This document shows positions 22,537 to 30,255 of a DNA stretch of 64,000 nucleotides, in pieces (positions within the stretch are counted from its first letter, which is position 1; each line of letters begins with the position of its first letter). The stretch covers positions 1 to 64,000 of the forward strand of contig JAGLZW010000036.1 of assembly GCA_023131225.1 (NCBI GenBank). The letters run 5' to 3'. Under the pieces are notes generated by a model that saw only the letters and a list, made by a program, of their open reading frames with translations, was not told the DNA's origin and searched no databases. The DNA is from Candidatus Bathyarchaeota archaeon (GTDB taxonomy: Archaea > Thermoproteota > Bathyarchaeia > Bathyarchaeales > SOJC01). The translations under genes and the position numbers were made by a program.

Positions 22537-25500
22537 CTATTGCTCAGTTTTCTTCGGCGGGGGTTTCTTTTTCTTTTTTATGGCAAAGATGACGACAATC
22601 GCAACGATAGCTACAATGACGCAAGTTATCGAAGCTAGGAACCAGATTTGAGTCCAGAATGGTGATGGTTGTCCAAAGAGAGCCCATATGCTGAAGTGGT
22701 TGACAACAGCCCACACATAATGCTCGTCTGTGTTTATGTGACTTTCAACTGGAATCCACTTGCCTTCCGTGGCGTTCCAATAATGGATCTGCAATGAGCT
22801 TTCGTCCAGCCCTAATTCGGACAGTTGCTCAAGCGTATAGTATATGCGTATGGTGGCATTTACAGCGACGTCTGTTTCGTTGGCAATGATTTCTACATAG
22901 TTACTTAAAGCCTTGAGCGTACCTGGTGGGGGTTCCACATTTTCCGGTAAGGTTGTTACATTTCTTATGGCTATTTCGACAGGCTTGTCGATCTCGGTGA
23001 TTATGAGTTTAGACGAAGTTTTATTCATGGCATCAATTATGAATGGGTTTGTAGCGTTAACAGTCTCTGGATTAGTAATGGTCCCAGTTGTTTGAGAGCC
23101 CTCTATTGATAGATTTATGGTATAGACTCCGCTGTAACTGACGATTAGGGATTTTGTTGTCGAGACCTCCAGGTAAGTAGCCGTGATGTTGTATTCTCCG
23201 TAGGGCATGTATGCATAGTCTACAGCAAAAGTCGTTGTATATCCGAAGTCGTCGGTTGTTAGCGACATATAGAGTGTTCCGTTTGGCCAATACACTTCCA
23301 CAGTTACATTTTGTACGGGGTCGCCCACTTGATCAACTACAAGTACTCTTGCAGTGTATGTTTGCGGTTCAATTTTGAATATTAAATCTTTGATGTTGCT
23401 GATTGATTCGTTATACCAAATCATGTAGCTGTTGTTAGGACCTGTTTCATTAGGCGTCGGTACGCTTCCAGTGCTGATTAAAGTGACAGCATGGGTAACA
23501 TTGTTTCCTCCCTCAACTATCAGTTTAAGCTGTTCTCCTGAACTTGGGAATGGATAATCAGCTGTGAGGTTGAAGAAGCGTTCAAGTTTGAATTGAGTGG
23601 GGTCGGAATCAACGGGGTCTATTGGCGGCGTTAGAGTTAAGTCGTCAAAATCGACTGTAAGAGACGTGTTGCCATAGTTGAAGTTCATCTGGAGTTTGTT
23701 GATGTCGATCGTTGTTTGGTTGAGGAATACTAGCTGCCAAGGTAGCGACTCTACTCCAGTCATTATTTTAAGGAGATTCATCATGACTTGTTTTATGTGG
23801 TTGATTTCAGCGGTGAGATCTCCCTCGATCACATATGTTGATTCGAAATGCACTATGCCGTTTTGGTAAGACATCGACTCATTGTAGGATTCCATTGAGC
23901 AATATGTCGTGTTTAGTAGCAACTCTACGAAAGGTTTGATCTCTAGGGGTGCCACGTCCGGCAATAGAGCAGCGATCTCATCCCAATACTCTGACAAGTT
24001 TGAGGTAGCAGTTAGGTTTACCTGAAATTCCTTGTTTGTACTCGAGTATTCGAGCTTGACTGAAGCGTCTTTTAGCATTGAAAACGTATGATTTAACAAT
24101 TGTAAGGGGATCTCTGGAGGGATGGACATTGGTGGAATATACATAGATGGAATCGGCGGGTATAACATGAGGTTTCCGATATAAGGTATACATGTTACAA
24201 CCTTTCCTATCAAACTCGTATGTGGAACCAGCCAAGGATCTGGACTTGGGTTGTTGTCTCCTTTCGTCTTGAAATACCACTCGCCTGTAGTAGTGTTGAA
24301 GAATTTGTCTACTGCTCTATGTACAACTATGACGTTCGGATCTGACGGTTTGTAGAATGCGATGATGTCACCAGTTTCATTGTTAGCTACGATTTGACTT
24401 GGGTCTGCAATGCTTTCAACTCGTACTATGTCGCCAACCAGCAGAGTGGGGTCCATAGACATACCAGCTACTGCAAAGTATCTGGCCTCTGGCGCAGCAA
24501 GGTATTCTACTAATGATCTTAGATCATAGGCGAATGTTAACGATAAAGAAACTTGTTTTGAACTGACTGTGTATGCCACTTGGAAAGAGAGGGTATCAAC
24601 GGAGGACAGAGTTGCGTTTAACAACGGACATAGCATCATGTTTTGGGCAGGTCCTGACATAATGAACGCCAATGCCTTGATAAAGTTGCCATGTACGGTC
24701 GCGTTGAATGTTACATCTGCGCTGGTGGTTCCATAGGTTGGGGTTGTGGTGAACTGAGTGCATTCAAACAAGCCCATTGTCATATTGTATAAGGAGTGTG
24801 GACCTGTTTCTGGAAGGGTGCTGTTTATTTCTAGAAGCCATTCGTCTAGCGTTGTCTTGTTGAGGGGGAATTGTGGGAAAGGCAGAGGTAACTCAAAGGA
24901 CATGACATCATAAATGAAAGTGATATCACTCATCAGGTTTAGGTCGGTTTGGTTTCCCTGAAACTCTATGTTTATGTCGCCTAATGGAAACCCTGATACC
25001 ATGTGAAACGTGATCGTTCCTTGAGCTACATTGTTAGAGTATTCTCCGACTGCGGAAATGTCGGTAATGTTGAACGGAAACGTTGAAGCAATGTAGGAAG
25101 GCAACGCTGTCAGGAAATCTAGTTGAAGGTTGAAAATTCCATCGGAATACGTCCCGGTTATTGCAACATCTGTAGTGTTGAAGGGATACTCTGCAGCAAT
25201 TCCGGCGGGCAGAGTCATCGTAGCATTAAGTTCGCTTTGAACATTCCCTTCAGAATATGTTTCAAGGATAGAGACTATAGTTGAGTTGAAGGGAAATTCG
25301 GACGCTTCTTTCGGCGGAATTTCCATAATGTAGTCTGCTGATGCCACTACTAAGCCGCCGTCTTTGGTGATTCCTATTACTCCTTGCATTGTGGGACCAG
25401 TGTTCGGACTGTTGACTTCTGACACAACCATGTCAGAGTAATCTAACGCTCCTGCTAACGTTACGGTGCCATTTGGATAGACGATGAACCTTGCTTCTAC

Positions 25501-25986
25501 GTCCTTAAAGGGAGCGTCAAACTCGGTATATGAGTATTCTCTTGAAAGCGGTACATTATATATGGTGTGAGGAATGTATGGATAATCTACTGTGGTGTCC
25601 AACCTTATCTCAGAAATGTTCAACGGGTTAATGCTTGAAGCGTAGATTGTGGGTCCGTAGAGACTAACGTTAACAACATTTATGCCCGTTTCGAAATAGG
25701 CAGATTCCGAGCGGCCCTCGATAAATAATTGCTGATAGCTCTCACTTATTAGGTTGTACACTTTGACATCATACCAACCCGGATCGCTAACATTAAACTC
25801 CACTCCTATTTGCAAAAGGTCGAATTTCCCATCGCCGTCCTTGTCCACTCCCTCATCATAAACATTGCCAGTAAGGCTGGCTCTTGGGCTCTCAGCGCCT
25901 GCAAAGGGTATCCGCATCAACGACAATGACAGAATCGTAAGAAGAAACGTGACAGTGAGCACATTCCGTATGGATATTCTTATCAT
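22537..25986 (-). CDS. Giant membrane-anchored ectodomain protein with an internal signal-peptidase-I (S26) domain
   Basis: 1149 residues. Signal peptide 1-31; C-terminal transmembrane helix (about 1108-1132) and a Lys/Pro-rich cytosolic tail (KKKKKPPPKKTEQ). Residues 228-335 are three tandem ~35-residue units built on EFPFNSTIV / EYPFNTTDV / TFPFNITDI. Residues 503-605 are a signal peptidase I domain: VAGMSMDPTLLVGDIVRVES with Ser510, VIVVHRAVD with His556 and YFKTKGDNN with Asp577, the Ser/His/Asp set of archaeal and ER-type enzymes. A Greek-key-like domain (ARVLVVDQVGDPVQNVTVEV) lies near 890. N-x-S/T sequons are abundant. Normal signal peptidases are about 150-200 residues, so this is a fusion. 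It may process exported or surface proteins. It is divergent from a MacB-type transporter with a shared palindromic promoter region. Confidence 0.88.
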   Translation of the reverse strand: MIRISIRNVLTVTFLLTILSLSLMRIPFAGAESPRASLTGNVYDEGVDKDGDGKFDLLQIGVEFNVSDPGWYDVKVYNLISESYQQLFIEGRSESAYFETGINVVNVSLYGPTIYASSINPLNISEIRLDTTVDYPYIPHTIYNVPLSREYSYTEFDAPFKDVEARFIVYPNGTVTLAGALDYSDMVVSEVNSPNTGPTMQGVIGITKDGGLVVASADYIMEIPPKEASEFPFNSTIVSILETYSEGNVQSELNATMTLPAGIAAEYPFNTTDVAITGTYSDGIFNLQLDFLTALPSYIASTFPFNITDISAVGEYSNNVAQGTITFHMVSGFPLGDINIEFQGNQTDLNLMSDITFIYDVMSFELPLPFPQFPLNKTTLDEWLLEINSTLPETGPHSLYNMTMGLFECTQFTTTPTYGTTSADVTFNATVHGNFIKALAFIMSGPAQNMMLCPLLNATLSSVDTLSFQVAYTVSSKQVSLSLTFAYDLRSLVEYLAAPEARYFAVAGMSMDPTLLVGDIVRVESIADPSQIVANNETGDIIAFYKPSDPNVIVVHRAVDKFFNTTTGEWYFKTKGDNNPSPDPWLVPHTSLIGKVVTCIPYIGNLMLYPPIPSMYIPPMSIPPEIPLQLLNHTFSMLKDASVKLEYSSTNKEFQVNLTATSNLSEYWDEIAALLPDVAPLEIKPFVELLLNTTYCSMESYNESMSYQNGIVHFESTYVIEGDLTAEINHIKQVMMNLLKIMTGVESLPWQLVFLNQTTIDINKLQMNFNYGNTSLTVDFDDLTLTPPIDPVDSDPTQFKLERFFNLTADYPFPSSGEQLKLIVEGGNNVTHAVTLISTGSVPTPNETGPNNSYMIWYNESISNIKDLIFKIEPQTYTARVLVVDQVGDPVQNVTVEVYWPNGTLYMSLTTDDFGYTTTFAVDYAYMPYGEYNITATYLEVSTTKSLIVSYSGVYTINLSIEGSQTTGTITNPETVNATNPFIIDAMNKTSSKLIITEIDKPVEIAIRNVTTLPENVEPPPGTLKALSNYVEIIANETDVAVNATIRIYYTLEQLSELGLDESSLQIHYWNATEGKWIPVESHINTDEHYVWAVVNHFSIWALFGQPSPFWTQIWFLASITCVIVAIVAIVVIFAIKKKKKPPPKKTEQ

Positions 25987-26001: not shown

Positions 26002-26018
26002 ACCCTATATTATAGGGT
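26002..26018. promoter_or_regulatory. Perfect palindrome in the divergent promoter
   Basis: ACCCTATA-T-TATAGGGT, 8-bp arms around one base. On the minus strand its core TATAATATA is centred about 24 bases before the ATG at 25986, the expected TATA position for a leaderless transcript. It ends 3 bases before the TATA box of the opposite gene. It could be a symmetrical repressor site controlling both genes. Confidence 0.55.
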
Positions 26019-26053: not shown

Positions 26054-27238
26054 ATGGAAGACAGTACCATGCGAGTTACAGGAATGTGTTTAAGAAATCT
26101 TTTTCGCAGACGACTTAGATCTTCACTTTGTGTTATCGGCGTTGCTTTGGCCGTCACGTTTGTTGTAGCTGTGGGGGCATCTACCACAAGATACATGGCA
26201 GTCATTAAAGAAATGAACATGTTCTTTAATGGTAAGGTTGTTGTCGTCGCTAGGGACGTAATTGTCATCCAAGCATTCCCGATTGGAGGGGTCATTCCGG
26301 AAAGTGTGGTTGACAAGTTGAACGCTATGGACGGAGTCGAAACAGTTGTGCCAATGTTGTTCAATCTCGACTTCGCACTGGCGGGTGACGCTCAACCTTT
26401 TCCGCTCAATGTTACGATCGGAGTGCCTGTGGGAAACTGGTCAGTGTTAGTAGGTTCGACGCCGTTGAAAAACGGAGGTTGGCCTTCAGCGGAATCTAGT
26501 GACAAAGTGGTGGTAGGGCCTTCTTTAGCAGACTTGTACAATTTAACCGTTGGCTCAACAATTATAATAAAAGACCACAAGTTGGAAGTTTCGGGAATCA
26601 TGGAAACACATTCTGTGTTTCTATCTCGCACAATTATAATGCCTCTCGAATCAGCTCAAGAAATATACAGATATCCTATGCAGATCAACATGGCGATCGT
26701 CTCATCAGATGAAGAGGCAGATGAGAGAGAACTAGCTGATAGAATTGAGAAAGAAATCAGCTATGTAATGGCGTTATCTGATGATGAAAGAAAAGAAATA
26801 ATTGAACCTATCATTAGCGAGGTCGAAACATGGAATATTGGGATACAAAGCATTCTTTTCTTCATGAGCGTGATACTTGTGACCGTGGTAGCAATGATGA
26901 ATGTTTCTGAGAGACGGAAAGACTTCGCCACATTGATTGCAATCGGAGCCTCTAGAGGCTTTATCATTCGTATAGTGATTACTGAAACCTTTCTTATAGG
27001 TTTACTTGGGGGTCTTATTGGACTGCTGTTTGGCACGGTCGGTGCATTTTGGCTAGGCAGCATCTATGCCGATGTCCCAATTGCATTATTCTTTCCTAAC
27101 GTCTTAGAAGTTGTTCCGTTCTCCTTTATGATTGAGATTCTAGCGTCCACAATCGTTGTTAGTTGCGTTGCAGGCATTATACCAGCTATAACGGCTGCTA
27201 GAATGAAGATTTCGGAGGTTTTGAGGGCTGAGTATTGA
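26054..27238 (+). CDS. MacB/FtsX-type ABC transporter permease
   Basis: 394 residues from the ATG at 26054, chosen from the TATA spacing; an internal ATG at 26069 is possible, and the longer open frame back to 25865 would run into the divergent gene. MCLRNLFRRRLRSSLCVIGVA leads the first transmembrane helix, followed by a ~230-residue extracytoplasmic MacB_PCD-like domain, then three C-terminal helices with the FtsX core (RRKDFATLIAIGASRGFIIR, SEVLRAEY at the end). It belongs to the MacB/LolCE class that couples ATP hydrolysis to mechanical work on exported or membrane substrates. It overlaps the ATPase gene by four bases. The neighbouring S26 protein may be its substrate or partner, which is inference. 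Confidence 0.88.
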   Translation: MEDSTMRVTGMCLRNLFRRRLRSSLCVIGVALAVTFVVAVGASTTRYMAVIKEMNMFFNGKVVVVARDVIVIQAFPIGGVIPESVVDKLNAMDGVETVVPMLFNLDFALAGDAQPFPLNVTIGVPVGNWSVLVGSTPLKNGGWPSAESSDKVVVGPSLADLYNLTVGSTIIIKDHKLEVSGIMETHSVFLSRTIIMPLESAQEIYRYPMQINMAIVSSDEEADERELADRIEKEISYVMALSDDERKEIIEPIISEVETWNIGIQSILFFMSVILVTVVAMMNVSERRKDFATLIAIGASRGFIIRIVITETFLIGLLGGLIGLLFGTVGAFWLGSIYADVPIALFFPNVLEVVPFSFMIEILASTIVVSCVAGIIPAITAARMKISEVLRAEY

Positions 27239-27903
27239 TTGTCAGGACATTTGAGTTGACACGGAAGTTTCATCTCGGCTCATCTACAATTGTGGCGGTG
27301 AATAAGGTAAACTTAGTAATCAAAGGATCCGCCTTGACGTCTATTGTCGGTCCCTCTGGTTCAGGTAAAACCACACTCCTTCATTTGATAGGGCTGAACG
27401 ACAATCCGACCGCGGGAAAAGTGTTCTTCGCAGACAAAGACACCTTCCTCATGAGTGATAAAGAAAAGAGAAGAACTCGACTCTTCAACATCGGTTTTAT
27501 CTTCCAAACCTTTAACTTGTTGCCCACGCTCACTGCCTTAGAAAACGTGGAGTTGCCGATGGCGTTAGCTAAGATCTCGCACAAGATGCAGAGAAAAATG
27601 GCTGTTCGACTTCTTGATGAGGTAGAGCTCACAACTCGGCTTAACCATCGTCCCAAGGAATTAAGTGCTGGTGAAAGACAACGAGTTGCAATTGCTCGAG
27701 CTCTCGCAAACGATCCTTCACTTATTCTCGCCGATGAACCAACTGGCGAATTAGACTCGGAAACGGGGATTAAGATCATACAGTTGCTTTTAGATTTATG
27801 TAGAAAACGTAAAACAGCGGTGGTTGTAGCGACGCATGATGAAAAGATAATTAAAGTAGCAGATGCGGTTCACAAAATTCGTGACGGCTCAATAGTCGAT
27901 TAG
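27235..27903 (+). CDS. ABC transporter ATP-binding protein (MacB/LolD type)
   Basis: 222 residues with Walker A GPSGSGKTTLLHLIG (about 41-55), Q-loop FIFQTFNLLPTLTALENVELP typical of the LolD/MacB group, signature ELSAGERQRVAIARAL, Walker B LILADEPTGELDSETG and H-loop VVATHDEK. The signature Ser-Ala-Gly differs slightly from the common LSGGQ. TTG start overlapping the permease stop codon (TTGA), so the two genes are translationally coupled. It energises the adjacent FtsX-like permease. Confidence 0.93.
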   Translation: MIVRTFELTRKFHLGSSTIVAVNKVNLVIKGSALTSIVGPSGSGKTTLLHLIGLNDNPTAGKVFFADKDTFLMSDKEKRRTRLFNIGFIFQTFNLLPTLTALENVELPMALAKISHKMQRKMAVRLLDEVELTTRLNHRPKELSAGERQRVAIARALANDPSLILADEPTGELDSETGIKIIQLLLDLCRKRKTAVVVATHDEKIIKVADAVHKIRDGSIVD

Positions 27904-29427: not shown

Positions 29428-30255
29428 TTAATTCCAGATCAAAACTATGAAGCTAGCAAACAAACCGAACAACACAGAGAAAGGCAACCCTGGAAACATC
29501 CCTTTCTTCTCCACCATTTTGAAGGACAAAAAGGAACCCAATAGCACCCCAAACATTGCAGCAACACAAGCCTCCCAGCCAAAACTCAAAAAAACCCGGC
29601 TGACCAGCATTGAATAGAATGTCAAATCGCCAAGCCCTACGTAAATGTTTTTGAAGGAGAAACTGGCCCCAGGCAAATGCTCTAAACCTTTCGCAGCAAT
29701 CTTACCCACAGGACCACGGAAAACAGCAACTACGTCATAAATAGCCAGTAACAATAGAATCAAGACTGCACTAAACAAAGGAATAGAAGCTCCCAACAAT
29801 GCTCCAGTGGCTCCTCCAAATATAAGAATGATAATCGCATGAAACTTGCCCTTTCTCAAAAAAACCTCTAGAACAAAAAATGCAGTCGTTAGAATAGTCA
29901 AAACAAAAATCACCGCCGAAGAGACTTCTATGTCTAAAATCATGAGAACAAGTTCAAAATAAAGGATCGCAAGAAGGAATGTGAGGACGGAAAACGCTAG
30001 ACCCATTAAAAGACGGAGGAAACGATGTACACCACGCTTCAAGAGAAAATATATCATGGTAGCACCGAACCCTGCTGCAAGAACAAAAATCATTGCGTTA
30101 AATAGTGGTCCATACCCCGTCTCAGGAAATACCGTTGTAGGGGTCAATTCTACTTTGGATTCCAAGAACAAGAACGTACACAGAACGCTAACAAGCAAGC
30201 TTGCAAATATGGGTGCAATGTAAATAGGGGTTGCTTTAAACTCTTTTTCAGCCAT
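29428..30255 (-). CDS. Presenilin/signal-peptide-peptidase homologue (intramembrane aspartyl protease)
   Basis: 275 residues with about nine hydrophobic segments. Catalytic motifs of family A22 are present: IYDVVAVF with Asp174, VGLGDLTFYSML with Asp210 (GxGD), and the PALP-like FPGLPFSV at 254-261. The two Asp residues sit in consecutive transmembrane helices as in the characterised archaeal presenilin homologue PSH. It cleaves membrane-spanning peptides, for instance leftover signal peptides. This would complement the S26 domain of the 22537 gene functionally, but no genetic link is visible. Confidence 0.88.
   Translation of the reverse strand: MAEKEFKATPIYIAPIFASLLVSVLCTFLFLESKVELTPTTVFPETGYGPLFNAMIFVLAAGFGATMIYFLLKRGVHRFLRLLMGLAFSVLTFLLAILYFELVLMILDIEVSSAVIFVLTILTTAFFVLEVFLRKGKFHAIIILIFGGATGALLGASIPLFSAVLILLLLAIYDVVAVFRGPVGKIAAKGLEHLPGASFSFKNIYVGLGDLTFYSMLVSRVFLSFGWEACVAAMFGVLLGSFLSFKMVEKKGMFPGLPFSVLFGLFASFIVLIWN

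Follow-up and report, generated by a model that had tools for sequence, protein, structure and literature searches.

A signal peptidase I (S26B) catalytic domain inserted in the exported partner of a MacB-type ABC cassette in a bathyarchaeal genome

In most descriptions, signal peptidases (SPases) are enzymes bound to the membrane, with their own membrane helix contributing to substrate recognition. A preliminary description of the stretch of DNA analysed here (64,000 nucleotides of contig JAGLZW010000036.1 of a Candidatus Bathyarchaeota archaeon, hereafter the window) had placed a signal peptidase I domain at residues 503-605 of a 1149-residue surface protein, which raises the question of what the catalytic core of such an enzyme may be doing in the middle of an exported chain. 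If active there, it would show the capacity of the SPase fold without the membrane and would provide a natural soluble S26B protease.

The host protein and its signal peptidase domain

The gene is an uninterrupted 1149-aa open reading frame (ORF) on the minus strand, starting with ATG at 25986 and stopping at 22537, in which the following parts were distinguished.

22537..25986, minus strand: surface protein, exported and C-terminally anchored, carrying the inserted domain (ORF; at least 21 related genomes have a homologue)
25894..25986, minus strand: predicted signal peptide, residues 1-31, ending in PFAGA before ES (hydrophobic segment 9-27; sequence reading)
24511..25884, minus strand: N-terminal host region, residues 35-492, with a D-x-D-x-DG loop and three repeats of ~36 residues (32-39% identity to relatives)
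24151..24498, minus strand: inserted signal peptidase I (S26B) catalytic domain, residues ~497-612 (TIGR02228, Sec11A match and predicted fold; absent at the site in 21 relatives)
23362..24150, minus strand: middle host region, residues 613-875 (aligned to relatives, where it directly follows the N-terminal region)
23092..23361, minus strand: second extra module, residues 876-965, weakly Ig-like (Big_1 E 0.0077, below cut-off)
22585..22641, minus strand: C-terminal transmembrane anchor, residues 1116-1134, then KKKKK (hydrophobic segment)

Hydrophobic stretches were confined to the signal peptide (9-27) and the anchor (1116-1134), so that the chain would be exported, as had been proposed, with its short lysine-rich tail inside. 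The glycosylation-rich character attributed to it was borne out by 38 N-glycosylation sequons, compared with 12.1 ± 3.1 in 500 shuffles (maximum 20), and the tandem repeats, previously given as 35 residues long, correspond to three units of ~36 residues each between ~229 and ~336, which are common to the host proteins of relatives and variable among them. The Ig-like module is missing in the closest relatives (L031, L032, L039 and L042). A model of the whole protein was poor (pLDDT 45) and its structure matches were dismissed as meaningless. The same genome encodes a second large exported protein (L003 on contig C3, an 883-aa frame), whose similarity to the window protein is limited to the C-terminal domain plus the anchor (residues 976-1141 of the window protein).

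With respect to the identity of the domain, the NCBIfam model TIGR02228 (sigpep_I_arch) matched residues 491-610 with 67.6 bits, above its cut-off of 51.85 (E 1.1e-18), which agrees with the location given in the preliminary description; the core spans residues ~497-612. The Pfam Peptidase_S26 model stayed below threshold on the host protein (17 bits, cut-off 22.9), and a profile built from the inserted domain and nine canonical SPases retrieved human Sec11A and Sec11C at E ~1e-20 (1.6e-20 for Sec11A). Identity between the insert and the canonical SPases of the class, that of its own genome included, was 41-51%. The domain was also modelled alone (131 residues, folded with four relatives), with a mean pLDDT of 72.9 and 83-92 in the core. 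In a search of the PDB with this model the best 22 matches were all SPases, SPase-like proteins or members of the LexA superfamily, with probabilities of 0.97-1.00 and modest E-values (0.002-0.06), since the alignment behind the model was thin. The predicted fold is thus SPase-like, as the earlier identification anticipated, and the exported, anchored ectodomain does contain an S26B catalytic domain.

The insert covers positions 22-133 of the 158 of TIGR02228, i.e. the core between the two membrane helices, with positions 1-21 unmatched. No membrane helix (TM1) directly precedes the catalytic core, residues 28-1115 being devoid of hydrophobic segments; the C-terminal helix is also absent, the sequence that follows the domain is proline-rich, and the anchor lies ~500 residues away. 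The preliminary description had the domain facing outward. The active site of ordinary type I SPases is likewise on the outer face of the membrane, so that orientation is not what sets this domain apart; the unusual features are the loss of the membrane tethering beside the active site and its mid-ectodomain location.

These features bear on whether the protein could be a second functional signal peptidase, dedicated to a subset of preproteins and brought to the membrane when the ectodomain folds back. Archaea can carry two SPases, Haloferax volcanii Sec11a and Sec11b being the precedent (PMC4343526), and the catalytic core and most S1/S3 pocket positions are conserved in the insert (see below). 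However, both membrane elements on which a signal peptide docks are missing, with a proline-rich sequence rather than a hydrophobic helix after the domain and the anchor so distant, which makes this function very unlikely. In Sec11A, TM1 and the C-terminal helix hold the h-region of the signal peptide in place, specificity is set by the pocket together with a membrane window, and the CTS helix is reported to be necessary for catalysis by the signal peptidase complex (PMC13385932). Since the insert has neither TM1 nor the C-terminal helix, it would not be expected to process membrane-inserted signal peptides as SPases normally do, and our best reading of the sequence is that the domain is not a signal peptidase by function.

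Insertion into the partner of a MacB-type cassette

The host gene is divergent from two genes on the plus strand.

26066..27238, plus strand: MacB/LolCE/FtsX-type (Type VII) ABC permease, the divergent neighbour (MacB_PCD 3.5e-14, FtsX 6.1e-13)
27235..27903, plus strand: LolD/MacB-like ABC ATPase (ABC_tran 1.8e-29; LolD model E 2.1e-67, below its cut-off)

The head-to-head arrangement with a MacB-type transporter, already noticed in the preliminary description, turned out to be a regular one. The host protein faces a permease orthologue in 18 of 20 regions, the other two being cut by contig ends, and the ATPase follows the permease in 17 of those 18; in the eighteenth the contig ends first. 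Of the 13 genomes in the family to which the window genome belongs, 9 have the permease orthologue, and the host protein is present in eight of these nine and in none of the other four; in this family the host gene and the permease have been gained or lost together. On sequence grounds the permease and ATPase are assigned to a Type VII ABC pair, because the permease combines a MacB core domain with an FtsX domain and LolD gives the closest match to the ATPase, while gene neighbourhood suggests that the host protein is their dedicated extracytoplasmic partner. No description of the function of this cassette of surface partner, MacB-type permease and ATPase, which extends over different orders of Bathyarchaeia, was found in the literature.

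Some other traits of these loci are worth recording. The divergent cassette, with its large exported partner, MacB-type permease and LolD-like ATPase, occurs in several Bathyarchaeia families (L057-L076), and in its partners both the copy number of the N-terminal calcium-loop-like domain and the C-terminal domain vary widely. One member of the family of the window genome (L113, in G004) has the permease-ATPase pair without a divergent host gene; there the pair is preceded, on the same strand, by two exported-looking proteins of 259 and 793 aa. The short stretch that separates the divergent surface-protein and permease genes in the window contains a perfect 17-bp palindrome, ACCCTATATTATAGGGT (26002-26018), which occurs only once in the genome even when one mismatch is allowed; it was discarded as a conserved operator between the divergent genes, as it was not found in relatives. 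A gene for a presenilin/SPP-like aspartyl intramembrane protease lies at 29428-30255 on the minus strand (Pfam Presenilin, E 1.6e-12).

Homologues of the host parts of the protein were found across the class Bathyarchaeia, and all 21 relatives that could be aligned on both sides of the insertion lack the SPase domain, their N-terminal region (to ~492) passing through a short linker to the middle region (from ~611); in L032, for example, residues 537 to 549 stand against residues 494 to 621 of the query. The insert occupies a loop between host elements. A search of 257 genomes of the class returned the domain in the host protein of the window genome only (1/257). Five relatives were retrieved in a search of contigs with the host family, all of them metagenome-assembled genomes labelled Bathyarchaeota or Bathyarchaeia, on the very contigs whose host homologues had already proved to be without the domain. 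The same fusion was not found beside MacB genes in relatives, which have the conserved cassette but not the SPase domain known from this genome alone. Among 397 genomes of the phylum, the longest SPase ORF within the best ~150 matches listed was 471 aa, the viral contigs searched contributed no SPases other than bacterial LepB, a His-type enzyme of 129 aa and a fragment, and a narrow literature search gave no published SPase-ectodomain fusion. The absence of the domain at this site in the 21 relatives and its occurrence in one of the 257 genomes indicate by sequence comparison that it is a lineage-specific insertion into the host protein of a conserved cassette. Given that the window genome has one copy each of the permease orthologue and the host protein, the insertion is in the working partner and not in a spare paralogue.

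The fusion was seen in one metagenome-type draft assembly of 50 contigs, with no second example, which raises the question of whether a piece of another SPase gene was misjoined into the host gene during assembly or binning. Such an error would have had to preserve the reading frame at two joins 350 bp apart without introducing a stop. In addition, the insert resembles the remainder of the gene in GC content (0.454, against 0.42-0.44) and in GC3 (0.431, against 0.44-0.48), the membrane helices are exactly what the inserted part lacks, and the insert is 49% divergent from the SPase of the same genome, so that it is not a local chimera. An artefact is therefore extremely improbable. Exactly two SPase loci were detected in the genome, the insert and a separate SPase of ordinary type, which is 195 aa long and has both membrane segments. 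The SPase tree left the insert unplaced on a long branch and so neither supports nor contradicts an origin by duplication of the genome's own gene.

Conservation of the active site

Column conservation was scored over 32 canonical SPases of the class, and the catalytic positions of the insert are as follows.

24457..24459, minus strand: Ser510, nucleophile, in a G-M-S-M-D-P-T-L motif (invariant in the 32 canonical SPases; aligns with Sec11A Ser56)
24319..24321, minus strand: His556, general base (invariant, 32/32)
24256..24258, minus strand: Asp577, in the GDNN motif (invariant, 32/32)
24238..24240, minus strand: Asp583, more likely the triad Asp, at the position of Sec11A Asp122 (30/32; Sec11A alignment)

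The Ser, His and Asp residues previously read as archaeal/ER-type motifs are thus in place at 510, 556 and 577, in columns that do not vary among the canonical enzymes. The assignment of Asp577 to the triad has to be revised. In the alignment to Sec11A, whose Asp residues are numbered by our own count, Asp577 corresponds to Asp116 and Asp583 to Asp122, the second Asp of box E. By its +6 spacing, Asp583 is also the equivalent of Asp148 of the Methanococcus voltae SPase, listed in a review as crucial together with Ser52 and His122 (PMC4343526). Based on the Sec11A alignment and this spacing, Asp583 is more likely than Asp577 to be the catalytic Asp.

The insert keeps 28 of the 31 near-invariant columns (conservation of 85% or more among canonical SPases), whereas in the variable columns it is identical to the SPase of its own genome in 26 out of 76 (Fisher P 9e-8). 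This retention, despite a branch of 1.57 changes per column leading to the insert in the SPase tree, argues that the catalytic core has been under selection for most of its history, with the shares before and after insertion not separable. Decay of the domain was consequently rejected as the simplest explanation. The earlier argument from intact catalytic residues holds to that extent, although activity itself may have been lost.

The three changed near-invariant columns are Ser to Gly508, Val to Ala543 and Ile to Val554. Gly508, which differs from all 32 neighbouring SPases, is at the position of the oxyanion residue Ser88 of E. coli; the active SPase SpsB of Staphylococcus aureus has Gly34 there, with a water replacing the hydroxyl (PMC4704075). 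Ala543 corresponds to Val84 in the S3 pocket of Sec11A (PMC13385932), so a change in side-chain preference at this pocket is possible. Most of the S1/S3 pocket positions of Sec11A are conserved, with Val52, Met57, Phe61 and Val95 corresponding to Val506, Met511, Leu515 and Val555.

These data are relevant to the possibility that useful catalysis has been lost and the domain serves as a peptide-binding or structural module, as SipA does in streptococcal pilus assembly. SipA, a non-catalytic SPase fold (PMC4049620), was also among the fold matches of the domain, and the substitutions at the oxyanion and S3-pocket positions, the long branch and the lack of the CTS helix needed by Sec11 would all fit such a role. 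Yet SipA has Asp48 at the nucleophile position and is missing the catalytic Lys (PMC12984324), while Ser510, His556, Asp583 and Asp577 are all kept here along with the great majority of near-invariant columns, and Gly at position 508 is compatible with activity, as seen in SpsB. We consider a non-catalytic module rather unlikely on balance.

Possible role of the inserted protease

Our preferred explanation, held tentatively and with somewhat less than even confidence, is that the soluble S26B core inserted in the Type VII partner is a working, membrane-distal protease of A-X-A-type specificity that serves the ABC system. In a lineage of Bathyarchaeia, the SPase catalytic core without its two flanking membrane helices would have been inserted in a loop of the exported partner, where it may function as an endoprotease held off the bilayer. 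Its substrates would then be small-residue (A-X-A-like) sites in surface or transporter-presented polypeptides instead of membrane-inserted signal peptides. The absence of the CTS helix and the presence of Gly508, unlike in the neighbouring SPases, count against an active enzyme.

MacB-type transporters convert the use of ATP into movement outside the membrane (PMC5985334). FtsEX drives a hydrolase via EnvC (PMC7668044, PMC11491553), and YbbAP presents substrates to TesA (PMC12646458). By analogy, ATP-driven movement of the MacB-type permease may set the position of the protease relative to its substrate. A stricter version, an ATP-gated extracellular protease in which the MacB-type pair moves the partner protein and cleavage of surface or exported polypeptides by the SPase core is limited to the transporter cycle, is quite unlikely; if true, a protease would be an integral part of a Type VII system, and the SPase core would have become independent of the membrane.

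Alternatively, the domain might be self-processing, cutting the chain that carries it or another copy of the protein, and in this way mature or shed the ectodomain. LexA-fold proteases cleave themselves, and members of this superfamily are among the fold matches; moreover, the domain is in the middle of a single-pass protein and has no membrane helices with which to present a signal peptide. On the other hand, the whole-protein model, with its low pLDDT, is too poor to place any site near Ser510, and the single fused sequence among the class genomes leaves no relative with which to compare cleavage sites. Self-processing is, in our opinion, unlikely.

In comparison with known systems, the insert shares with archaeal type I SPases and Sec11 (MEROPS S26B, TIGR02228) the fold, the Ser-His-Asp residues, the GDNN motif and most pocket positions; it differs in lacking TM1 and the C-terminal helix, in being located mid-chain in a 1149-aa ectodomain, and in having Gly508 in place of the oxyanion-side Ser and Ala543 in place of the S3-pocket Val. 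Like FtsEX-EnvC-amidase and YbbAP-TesA, the locus combines a MacB-type permease, a LolD-like ATPase, an adjoining gene for an exported partner and a hydrolase outside the membrane; unlike them it is archaeal and known from its genes alone, and its hydrolase is a protease domain that is part of a huge anchored partner and is restricted to one lineage. With SipA of Streptococcus pyogenes it has in common an SPase fold outside general signal-peptide removal, but SipA has lost the catalytic residues that the insert retains. What is new in this case is that the head-to-head cassette with a MacB/LolCE-type permease and a LolD-like ATPase is regular and the SPase domain a lineage-specific addition to it, and a protease domain added in one lineage may be a clue that the cassette handles exported polypeptides.

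Fusion of an SPase to another large domain is likewise found in Thermoproteota SPases of ~400-470 aa (L105-L108, L110 and L112). These differ from the protein described here in that the fusion is to a polytopic membrane domain and is not an insertion in an ectodomain, and therefore a membrane helix still precedes their SPase core. The multi-TM N-terminal domains of these six proteins look alike and present an E-x-x-R-like motif.
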